Positions 40,202 to 42,662 of a stretch of DNA of 64,000 bases are shown in pieces. This DNA is from Planctomycetes bacterium MalM25 (lineage in GTDB: Bacteria > Planctomycetota > Planctomycetia > Pirellulales > Lacipirellulaceae). The translations under genes were made by a program, and so were the position numbers. Numbering within the stretch: position 1 is the first letter of the stretch; each line of letters begins with the position of its first letter. The stretch is taken from positions 2,777,968 through 2,841,967 of the forward strand of contig CP036424.1 in the NCBI GenBank assembly GCA_007745835.1. Reading direction: 5' to 3'. The notes below the pieces were generated by a model. That model was not told the DNA's origin. It did not search any database and saw nothing but the letters and a program-made list of their open reading frames with translations.

Positions 40202-41692
40202 ATGTCGCTCGTTCTCGAACGGCGCAATTGGGCAGTCATGCTGCTCGCTCTGTGCGCCACCCTGGCCGGACCAGCCGGCTACGCGATCGCCCAAGAAGAG
40301 GGCGGCGAAGAAACCGCCGCCGCCGAAACCGAGGCCGCGGAAGAGCCCGCTGCTGAAGAACCGGCCGCTGAAGAGCCCGCCGAGGAAGAAGCTCCCGCTG
40401 AGGAAACAGCCGAGGCTTGGGAAGGCGGAGTCGGCTACGCCTTCGACAACGCGGTGCTGTTCCTCTGTGCTGTCCTCGTGTTCTTCATGCAAGCCGGCTT
40501 CGCGATGGTCGAATCGGGCTTCAACTCGTCGAAGAACGCGGTGAACATCCTGTTCAAGAACTCGATGGACATCTGCGTTGGCGTCCTGCTGTTCTTCCTA
40601 ATCGGATTCGGGTTGATGTACCCGACTCTCTACGAGAAAGAGGGGGGCTGGGACGACGTCAGTGGCTACCTCGCATTCGGCGGAGTTGGTCTCGAGAACT
40701 ACGTGCCCGCCGACGGCCGCACGTTCTCGCCCGAAGTGGATTGGCTCTTCCAAGCCGTCTTCGCCGCGACTGCCGCGACGATTGTCTCGGGAGCCGTTGC
40801 TGGGCGTATGAAGGTCTCGGGCTACTTGATCTACAGTGCTATCTTGACCGGCTTGGTTTACCCCATCAGCGGATACTGGAAGTGGGGTGGCGGTTGGCTC
40901 ATGCAGTTCGGTGAGCTGGTTGATGGTGAGTACGCAATGGGCTTCCAGGACTTCGCCGGCTCGGCGGTGGTTCACGGCCTCGGTGGCTTCGCCGGTCTTG
41001 CCGGCGCCATCGTGCTCGGACCGCGGATCGGCCGCTACGTCGATGGCAAGAGCGTCCCGATGCCCGGGCACAACATCCCGCTCGCCGGCCTCGGTGTGTT
41101 CATCCTTTGGTTCGGTTGGTACGGGTTCAACCCGGGCAGCTACCTCTCCTTCGCCAACACGGCGGATATCGATGGCACCATGCACTGCGCCGTCACCACC
41201 ACGCTAGCGGCCGGCGCCGGCGGCATCGTGGCGACGCTCGTCAGCTGGGTCATGTTCGGCAAGCCGGACCTCTCGATGGGTCTCAACGGCATCCTCGCCG
41301 GCCTAGTCAGCATCACGGCCTGCTGTGACTGCATGAGCAACATGCAGGCGATCCTCGTCGGCGGTGTCGGTGGCGTGCTGGTCATCGCGGGCATCATGCT
41401 GCTCGACAAGCTCAACATCGACGACCCGGTCGGCGCCTGGCCCGTCCACGGCCTCTGCGGCATCTGGGGCTGCCTGGCGATCGGCATCCTGCCCAACGAT
41501 TACCTCAAAGACGGAACGACGACGTTCGCCATCCAGGCCTGCGGCGCCCTCTCCATCTGTGCCTGGGGCTTCGTGACGATGTTCGTCCTGTTCAGTGTGC
41601 TGAAGTCGATGGACCTGCTCCGGGTTTCGCCCGAGGAAGAGCAGCAGGGTCTGGACATCAGCGAGCACGGCATGGCCGCCTACACGCACTGA
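40202..41692 (+). CDS. amtB: Ammonium transporter AmtB
   Basis: A 496-residue Amt/Mep channel conducting ammonium across the inner membrane. I chose the ATG at 40202 (GAGGAAA just upstream) over the ATG at 40190. A signal peptide (about 1-30) is followed by an unusual Glu/Ala/Pro-rich segment (about 31-74) before the first helix. The 11-helix body has the twin pore histidines in SAVVHGLGGFAGL and WPVHGLCGIWGC, plus FGWYGFNPGS. The C-terminus (KSMDLLRVSPEEEQQGLDIS) is the cytoplasmic tail that binds PII. A sigma-54 promoter lies upstream and a PII gene 622 bases downstream. Confidence 0.96.
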   Translation: MSLVLERRNWAVMLLALCATLAGPAGYAIAQEEGGEETAAAETEAAEEPAAEEPAAEEPAEEEAPAEETAEAWEGGVGYAFDNAVLFLCAVLVFFMQAGFAMVESGFNSSKNAVNILFKNSMDICVGVLLFFLIGFGLMYPTLYEKEGGWDDVSGYLAFGGVGLENYVPADGRTFSPEVDWLFQAVFAATAATIVSGAVAGRMKVSGYLIYSAILTGLVYPISGYWKWGGGWLMQFGELVDGEYAMGFQDFAGSAVVHGLGGFAGLAGAIVLGPRIGRYVDGKSVPMPGHNIPLAGLGVFILWFGWYGFNPGSYLSFANTADIDGTMHCAVTTTLAAGAGGIVATLVSWVMFGKPDLSMGLNGILAGLVSITACCDCMSNMQAILVGGVGGVLVIAGIMLLDKLNIDDPVGAWPVHGLCGIWGCLAIGILPNDYLKDGTTTFAIQACGALSICAWGFVTMFVLFSVLKSMDLLRVSPEEEQQGLDISEHGMAAYTH

Positions 41693-41813
41693 TCCCGACG
41701 CGGACTCCGCTCTAGGAAGGAGCGGGCGACGAGGCCGCCACGGAGGGCGGCCGGAACGACTGCGAAAGACACGCCGCGAAGGGACTTCCGGTGTGACGCG
41801 TTCAGGGAGTTGG

Positions 41814-41856
41814 TCTCGGCCCGGGGCGGTTACCGCCTGGTCGCCTCGGGCCGGGG
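41814..41856 (+). repeat. Loop-conserved hairpin 1
   Basis: Left arm GGCCCGGGGCG (41818-41828) pairs with CGCCTCGGGCC (41842-41852), one G-T wobble. TCTC before and GGGG after can extend the stem. The apical loop contains TTACCGCCTGG (41830-41840). Followed by CTTTTCCC. Confidence 0.65.
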
Positions 41857-41891
41857 CTTTTCCCTAGACGCTTACTGAACCAACCGATCGC

Positions 41892-41935
41892 TTCCGACCC
41901 GGCGGAGTTACCGCCTGGCTCCGCCGGGCTCGGGA
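41892..41935 (+). repeat. Loop-conserved hairpin 2
   Basis: A perfect 10-base-pair stem, CCCGGCGGAG (41898-41907) with CTCCGCCGGG (41919-41928), around the loop TTACCGCCTGG (41908-41918). An outer stem TTCCGA/TCGGGA continues after a one-base bulge. The stem sequence differs from hairpin 1 while the loop is identical. Confidence 0.7.
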
Positions 41936-41997
41936 GCGTGTTTGAGACCGCGGTGGGAAGGGGAAAGCCCTTGCCGCCCCCAACGAACCAACCAGCG

Positions 41998-42044
41998 CCC
42001 CTGGGGCGGGAGCGAGTTACCGCCTGGCTCGCTCTCGTCCGGGG
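41998..42044 (+). repeat. Loop-conserved hairpin 3, terminator-like
   Basis: A 13-base-pair stem, GGGCGGGAGCGAG (42004-42016) with CTCGCTCTCGTCC (42028-42040), two wobbles, around loop TTACCGCCTGG (42017-42027). Outer CCCC/GGGG pairing is possible. The downstream GTGTTTTTGTTTTG makes this copy look like an intrinsic terminator. Confidence 0.7.
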
Positions 42045-42100
42045 GTGTTTTTGTTTTGCAGGCCGCGTGGCAAGGACCACGCCCCTAAGCCAGAAGGACG

Positions 42101-42149
42101 CCCCGCATGGCTTGGGCGGGCTCTCCGCCTAGACCCGCTCAAGCCGGGG
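42101..42149 (+). repeat. Loop-conserved hairpin 4 (variant loop)
   Basis: A 12-base-pair stem, GGCTTGGGCGGG (42109-42120) with CCCGCTCAAGCC (42134-42145), one wobble. The loop CTCTCCGCCTAGA shares the CCGCCT core and 8 of 11 positions with the other three. Outer CCCC/GGGG arms flank it across a GCAT bulge. Confidence 0.6.
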
Positions 42150-42314
42150 TGTCCCTGGAAAAGTGTTAGGTGCTAGAGGGCAGAGGATCGAGGGTAGGGG
42201 GGTCTGGGGCGGCGCCGGTTTCAGGGAGGCGGCCCCATCGACTATGATGCTTGGCCCTAGATCGACGGGTGGCTTAGTTCTGCCATCTCTCATCTGCCAA
42301 CTATCATCTGCCCT

Positions 42315-42662
42315 ATGAAGCTGATCATCGCCATCATCCAGCCCAGCAAGCTGGAGGACGTGAAGTCCGCCCTGGCGGAAGTGGAGGTCGTCCGACTGAC
42401 GATCCTCGACGTGCAGGGCTTCGGTCGCCAGAAGGGCCAGACCGAGCAGTACCGGGGCGCCGACATCTCGGTCAGCCTGCTCCGCAAGGTCCAGCTCCAG
42501 ATCGCCGTGAACGAGGAGTTCGTCGAGCCGACGATCAACGCCATCATCCAGGGCGGACGCTCGGGCGACTCGGGCGAGATCGGCGACGGCAAGATCTTCG
42601 TCCTCCCAATGGACGACTGCGTCCGGATCCGTACCGGCGAACGAGGCGACGAGGCGATTTAG
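42315..42662 (+). CDS. PII nitrogen regulatory protein (GlnB/GlnK type) lacking Tyr51
   Basis: A 115-residue PII signal protein that binds ATP/ADP and 2-oxoglutarate and gates AmtB. Family features: GFGRQKGQTEQYRGAD (T-loop base, Gln39 and Tyr46 kept), GDGKIFVLPMDDCVRIRTGE and C-terminal GDEAI. At position 51, where the uridylylated Tyr sits in enteric PII, there is Ile (GADISVS). Compared with E. coli GlnB there is also a short insertion before GDGKIF (GRSGDSGEIGDGK). So GlnD-type uridylylation at the standard site is impossible, and control would rest on effector binding. No clear Shine-Dalgarno sequence. Linked to amtB across the hairpin array. Confidence 0.93.
   Translation: MKLIIAIIQPSKLEDVKSALAEVEVVRLTILDVQGFGRQKGQTEQYRGADISVSLLRKVQLQIAVNEEFVEPTINAIIQGGRSGDSGEIGDGKIFVLPMDDCVRIRTGERGDEAI

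Follow-up and report, generated by a model that had tools for sequence, protein, structure and literature searches.

To our knowledge, no control of AmtB-PII at the RNA level is known in Planctomycetes. Titration RNAs of the CsrB/RsmZ type display one recognised loop on many hairpins whose stems change, and CsrB/C are described as binding several CsrA dimers. The glnA RNA and Downstream-peptide Rfam families are cyanobacterial and marine. According to PMC2864571, whose abstract bears in part on that range, both motifs go with genes for PII, glutamine synthetase and ammonium transporters, and can occur in tandem. The same paper describes the tandem pan motif, i.e., simple hairpins that occur mostly in tandem and were suggested to be protein-binding sites, and a table there lists the Rhodopirellula-1 motif (Weinberg et al. 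2010), a candidate RNA of Planctomycetes, and also of Proteobacteria, without an Rfam accession. ANTAR target RNAs, as presented in PMC8934654, consist of two adjacent hairpins with six-base loops beside a terminator, each hexaloop having an A at position 1 and a G at position 4. Within the texts available, literature searches found no RNA-level AmtB-PII control in Planctomycetes, and the nitrogen-gene passages of PMC2864571 concern other motifs.

The hairpins described here, found in a 64,000-nucleotide stretch of DNA from Planctomycetes bacterium MalM25 (the window), share traits with each of these systems. Like CsrB/RsmZ, they form an array with a constant loop and varying stems (2 to ~20 copies of a form that we term type A); however, CsrA sites are GGA whereas the loop here is CCGCCU, and the array lies inside the amtB/PII locus and is not known as a separate RNA. 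The ANTAR likeness concerns a two-hairpin unit of related loci, P1-P2, with neighbouring hairpins, six-base loops and a terminator-like end, yet its loops, CCGCCU and UUGCCU, lack both A1 and G4. The ANTAR domain (PF03861) had no match in the window's genome (G000); across the 43 genomes of its family it was found at E <= 0.01 in 13, 12 of them above the cut-off, and the hairpin in 34. An ANTAR target was therefore rejected, as the loops are without A1/G4 and the element's own genome has no ANTAR protein. Tandem pan hairpins are likewise simple and tandem, but have conserved bulged A residues and precede pantothenate genes. The Rhodopirellula-1 motif is a possible match, compared by its table entry alone, which neither shows nor excludes identity. 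Unlike glnA RNA and Downstream-peptide, the element has no Rfam match: in Rfam 15, the window gave none at the gathering cut-off and ten related loci none at E <= 0.1, and the six matches returned for 41500-42500 at E <= 5 each fell below their own gathering score. The initial impression that the loop belongs to no described family thus agrees with Rfam, at this locus and at the ten related ones.

Hairpins between amtB and PII

The ammonium transporter gene amtB (40202..41692, plus strand; PF00909, E = 1.2e-118) has its stop codon at 41690-41692 and an uncertain start codon, its frame being open from 40019, and a PII gene of the glnB/glnK type follows on the same strand (42315..42662; PF00543, E = 1.4e-27). 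Between the amtB end at 41692 and the PII start at 42315 lie 622 nt, within which the original prediction had placed four hairpins, three with an identical loop and a fourth sharing 8 of its 11 positions. This description was accurate: three loops are exact, the fourth matches at 8/11, and the two Pfam domains confirm the flanking genes. When folded, the segment 41690-42314 (625 nt) gave a z-score of -6.75 vs 20 shuffles, with all four appearing as long hairpins.

We built a covariance model (R1) from 49 sequences, among which hairpins 1 and 3 of the window did not figure. Hairpin 1 (type A, 41801..41868, plus strand) carries the loop TTACCGCCTGG at 41830-41840, then TTTTCCC, and scores E = 4.6e-4 against the whole genome; its tail is terminator-like, with a site at 41813-41857. 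Hairpin 2 (type A, 41878..41946, plus strand), found in the fold and included in the training set (R1 E = 7.4e-6), bears the same loop at 41908-41918 on a stem that is perfectly paired for the 10 bp next to the loop. Hairpin 3 (type A, 41988..42055, plus strand) has the loop at 42017-42027, then TTTTTGTTTT and a terminator-like tail (E = 1.3e-4); in the window, such tails follow hairpins 1 and 3 only. Hairpin 4 (type B, 42096..42154, plus strand; E = 6.0e-13, inside the training set) is the conserved copy nearest PII, and comprises an outer stem (GGACGCCCC/GGGGTGTCC), a 5' bulge, an inner stem and the loop TCTCCGCCTAG (8/11), with the core CCGCCT at 42125-42130; equivalents of it are present in the amtB-PII interval of relatives. 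Since hairpins 1 and 3, which lay outside the training set, still score as they do, the hairpins are not a chance finding. In the 4.72-Mb genome, the four hairpins were the only sites reported by R1 at E <= 1, with 150 of 3367 first-look candidates fully scored. The exact 11-mer of the loop occurs six times in this genome, and the sequences around the other three copies do not fold into the hairpin. The fold also contains a small hairpin of 6 bp with the loop CAAGGA (42065..42082, plus strand), at the site taken by P1 in other families; by eye, P1 itself was not recognisable before hairpin 4. Just 5' of the PII start, at 42279-42306, there is a 14-nt tandem repeat (TCTGCCATCTCTCA / TCTGCCAACTATCA).

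At E <= 1e-30, 39 of the 43 family genomes had PII relatives, counting paralogues, and we read the upstream intervals at the 30 best PII loci. The number of type A copies ranged from none to ~20 between genera, arrays having 2 to ~20: 2-3 copies in the window's genus, 4 in L010, 8 in L022 and 11 within 1.5 kb in L026. One further hairpin, type B, stood nearest PII in nearly all 30 loci and could be aligned from 27; the three loci left out had the usual loop (L019), CCGCCUU (L028) or no type B at all (L012, where PII does not adjoin amtB). In several genera that have no array, there is a third form, type C, closer to amtB. Six array hairpins at positions 40-648 of L048 repeat in 108-nt steps with near-equal scores, and mark a recent tandem duplication. 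In L018, L029 and L030, the stretch from the last hairpin to the PII start contains short repeats of the GCGGATTGCGGAATGCGG type and, after them, inverse copies (ATTCCGCATTCCGC-like), and different short repeats, likewise inverted, precede the PII start in L028 and L033 (by eye). A coding sequence or leader peptide (MAWVGFPP-like) was considered at type B and rejected: its ATG (ATGGCTTGGG...CCGCCT) is missing in L018, L022, L030, L033 and L036, and the frame to CCGCCT is broken in L013 and L025 (by eye).

The hairpins have a common architecture, namely an outer stem, a bulge of 3-5 nt on the 5' side, an inner stem of ~10-14 bp and the loop. Read across copies and species, the constant part of the loop is ~6-7 nt (CCGCCU), and the remaining positions can pair and change in step (UU/GG, UU/AA, UC/GA, CC/GG). 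The 11-base loop, first noted as conserved, is thus exact in three copies of the window, but invariant over ~6-7 nt only, the rest being pairable and covarying. Because the family hairpins were collected by the pattern CCGCCT, the invariance of this core in alignments A1-A3 is by construction; independent support for loop constancy comes from the model search in other families.

Covariation and taxonomic range

We examined pairing in A3, an alignment of 49 hairpins made from sequence alone, without consulting structure (931 cells). Paired cells amounted to 86.3%, vs 72.1% when shuffled and 33.7-51.5% when the partner was slid by 1-3 columns. The covariation score was 0.539 vs 0.265 shuffled, and a one-column slide brought it to at most 0.190. 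Two-sided changes were seen in 18 of 19 pairs, with 149 double-change cells vs 47.5 shuffled. Independently, RNAalifold recovered the inner 10-bp helix from A3, with compensation in 9 of 10 pairs. The same hairpins contained 19 A·C cells vs ~82 in shuffled data, and 113 G·U cells vs ~162. As A·C, which is a wobble on the opposite strand, was purged more than G·U, the wobble on the sense strand, it is the sense RNA that is selected. In three species of the window's genus (L007, L008 and L009), hairpins could be matched by position and showed compensating changes (by eye). Selection at the RNA level, and the element's association with amtB and PII, are observed, in agreement with the original prediction that a structured RNA with a constant loop is maintained here.

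Within the window's family, R1 matched 34 of 43 genomes, or 27 of the 28 good ones. Among the matches listed in this 43-genome search, all places were amtB and/or PII loci. Searches over more than 40 genomes were run with strict filters. Order-wide, R1 at E <= 0.001 matched 161 of 296 genomes (among the good ones, 113 of 205), representing 18 of 20 family labels, and gave no match in the other 135 under these filters. A second covariance model (R2), built from other families, matched 67 of 297 genomes in a class-wide sample, all 67 with labels at the level of the order or closer. In a phylum-wide sample it matched 4 of 294, namely the genome of the window and three others from its order. Since all class and phylum matches fall in the same order, the element is confined, in these samples and under strict filters, to one order (Pirellulales). 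R2 at E <= 0.01 also matched 16 of 80 named PII loci, including Rhodopirellula rubra (L248), R. maiorica (L250) and 'Pirellulales bacterium' (L222), names that point to Pirellulales as the order.

The element went undetected in two members of the order in which amtB directly precedes PII (L191 and L204), and in three such pairs of another order in the same class (L202, L203 and L205); it is therefore not required for the amtB-PII pair as such. In the order family f17, the best PII loci of eight genomes (L192, L193, L195-L199 and L201) had no amtB within 1.5 kb and no clear hairpin, the one R2 match being in L197 at E = 0.5.

Three results had been named in advance as telling against the original prediction: a match to a known Rfam family, dispersal over many unrelated sites, and relatives lacking compensating stem changes. 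With the locus and ten related ones searched against Rfam, and the covariance model run on the own genome and the order, none of these occurred, because Rfam had no match, the hairpin is not a dispersed repeat and the interval of relatives does contain compensating changes.

Placement and terminator-like form

We collected 126 loci from the model matches, a non-random set in which some low-scoring second matches were picked deliberately. The element had amtB before and PII after it at 51 loci, PII after only at 37, amtB before only at 26, amtB after at 2 and neither gene at 10; in total, 116 of 126 adjoin amtB and/or PII, and opposite-strand matches to AmtB or PII were seen at none of them. 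A script had counted 51 both, 37 PII only, 25 amtB only and 13 neither, and was then corrected by eye: L071, whose amtB lies behind a 2-kb array, was moved to amtB before, and L167 and L182 to a position before amtB. The PII-only class may hide an amtB beyond the fetched stretch, as in L048 with its long array. The loci with neither gene were L074, L095, L123, L134, L168, L169, L174, L178, L181 and L185, of which L074, L123 and L169 stop at contig ends, L074 with an AmtB C-terminal fragment (by eye). At L174 and L178, related hairpins lie behind an ABC transporter and an aminotransferase, respectively (by eye), which could be further targets. Divergent paralogues of amtB (27-60% identical to the window's) also carry the element at L166, L171, L175-L177 and L184, as do divergent PII paralogues (42-46%) at L166, L176, L177 and L184. 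The location first described, between amtB and PII, holds for the window and its relatives, but the element is not specific to that interval: it also occurs downstream of an amtB that is not followed by PII, ahead of a PII gene for which no amtB was seen on the upstream side, and twice before amtB. At many PII-only loci, a gene for a BBP2-type outer-membrane porin-like protein precedes the hairpin in the same direction (by Pfam in the three scanned, L088, L113 and L131; by eye in L086, L092, L093 and L097).

In many other families, a small hairpin, P1 (loop UUGCCU), is directly followed by a large bulged one, P2 (loop CCGCCU). P1 has the stem GGCUC/GGGCC with the extension CUUC/GAAG. This P1-P2 unit, mostly with a U-tract, was present in 27 loci (alignment A5), chosen for a visible P1 out of a set of 61, in which 94% of P1 cells were paired, with two-sided changes in 2 of 9 pairs; a larger alignment, A4, holds 150 of 181 matches fitted to the model. 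P1 was absent from most loci of family f7 in the set of 61 (by eye), and the P2 loop is altered in some related elements (L167, L171, L174, L175 and L188). Defining a U-tract as at least 5 T in 8, with control stretches 25-37 nt further on, we found one directly after the stem at 36 of 49 loci outside the window's family vs 2 of 48 controls, and after 24 of 101 hairpins within it vs 0 of 101 controls. Because a U-tract follows at most loci outside the family, P2 resembles an intrinsic terminator. Hairpin 4 of the window, the most conserved one, has no U-tract.

Several nearby sequences could form other pairings: a purine run, AGAAGG, with P1's CUUC or with the U-tract; a GCCTGGG box lying upstream with the 3' strand of P2; and the GAAG of P1 with the U-tract. 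In L225 and L233 (Rhodopirellula sp. and Rubripirellula sp.), an inverted copy further downstream (CACCAGGCAAGGCCAGAGGACTTC in L225) is able to base-pair with the P1 region, so that P2 would be enclosed and another fold may result.

A putative loop-reading factor and its alternatives

Judged from sequence, the element, which belongs to one order, is very probably a hitherto undescribed RNA switch or binding site that would serve ammonium uptake. Because the loop is constant on drifting stems, the 5' bulge is kept, the form is terminator-like and the element is placed with amtB and PII whether these are together or apart, we propose that it acts in cis and that one shared factor reads it. More specifically, it may act in cis within amtB/PII transcripts as a terminator-like RNA element, with a loop read by a putative factor and with tandem amplification in the window's family, a proposal that could equally well hold or fail; the factor, its signal and the direction of control are what we infer. 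A trans-acting factor, most simply a nitrogen-responsive RNA-binding protein, would recognise the constant loop and decide whether RNA polymerase reads through, or whether the message survives or is broken down, and the levels of the transporter and its PII partner would thereby be coupled. Tandem arrays have arisen in the window's family by copying of the hairpin, with loop and pairing kept while the stems drift. Counting against this explanation, termination by itself calls for neither a constant loop nor as many as ~20 copies. The missing tail of hairpin 4, the loci without P1, with a changed P2 loop or with neither gene, the weaker U-tracts on the PII side in f7, and the order members in which the element went undetected also speak against it.

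A plain structural role, in which the hairpins serve as terminators, as 3'-end or intercistronic stabilisers, or as an exonuclease block that sets the amtB:PII ratio, with the loop unread, is rather unlikely in our estimate. It would suit GC-rich hairpins with U-tracts that sometimes come right after the amtB stop codon, as well as the arrangement in genome G003, where amtB and PII are 21 kb apart, an array of ~20 stays behind amtB with none at PII, and the next long open frame is convergent. Stability alone, however, fails to explain a loop kept on drifting stems and a kept 5' bulge, and it fails to explain a copy before PII that faces a divergent gene. Such copies occur in f7 (G223, G271, G155 and G158), in which amtB and PII lie on different contigs, have no partner within ~2.4 kb and each carry a copy, the PII-side copies having weaker U-tracts than the amtB-side ones (by eye). 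Upstream of the PII copy stands a photolyase gene read divergently (2 of 2 loci scanned), so the copy is not the photolyase's terminator; to go by the gene order, it is in PII's own leader, unless the PII promoter lies after it.

The element could also be an sRNA gene, with P1-P2 and its U-tail acting in trans through C-rich loops on G-rich sites (e.g., ribosome-binding sites) and arrays raising the dose. Its sRNA-like end (hairpin plus U-tract), its C-rich loops and its occurrence with either gene would fit, and 12 of 27 relatives have, downstream of the last hairpin and ahead of PII, a sequence complementary to the core if wobble pairs are allowed ([AG]GG[CT]GG). Only 4 of 27 have the exact complement, AGGCGG, in that place, though, the reverse strand of the genome has no match to the 11-nt loop, and the ~16 nt aligned before P1 share no sequence, and we regard such a gene as unlikely. 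The same two counts, taken as raw numbers, do not support a kept pairing between the loop and a site downstream.

Alternatively, the array may be a titration device borne on the mRNA, in which type A copies soak up a factor acting at the single type B, as CsrB does for CsrA. The variation in type A number between genera, the one type B kept at the array's end and the loop core common to both types speak for this, but the factor is only putative and most of the order genomes listed have one to three matches and no array, which makes titration improbable. A dispersed REP-like or mobile repeat, which the original prediction had allowed for, or a functionless lineage curiosity, is very improbable despite the recent tandem duplications in one genome (the 108-nt units of L048), given that the four sites reported in the window's genome all lie in the amtB-PII interval, that the element is widely retained with compensating changes, and that one 20-nt consensus of it has no exact match in viral contigs. 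That last search, a weak test with one pattern, is also the basis on which a viral origin was rejected.

A broader form of the proposed cis element, unlikely as it stands, would be an undescribed RNA regulon dedicated to ammonium uptake, in which a loop-reading protein controls amtB and PII through the single P2 or type B hairpin, and the amtB message, in one family, bears an evolving decoy array (up to ~20 copies) that titrates it. If this were true, transcribing the transporter gene would tune its own regulator. For the cis element itself, one RNA signal would tie the partner genes amtB and PII even when they are apart, and the loop and copy number would offer a ready genetic handle on the control of ammonium uptake in these bacteria. 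The arrays are, moreover, a natural experiment in how stems can drift under a recognised loop that stays the same.
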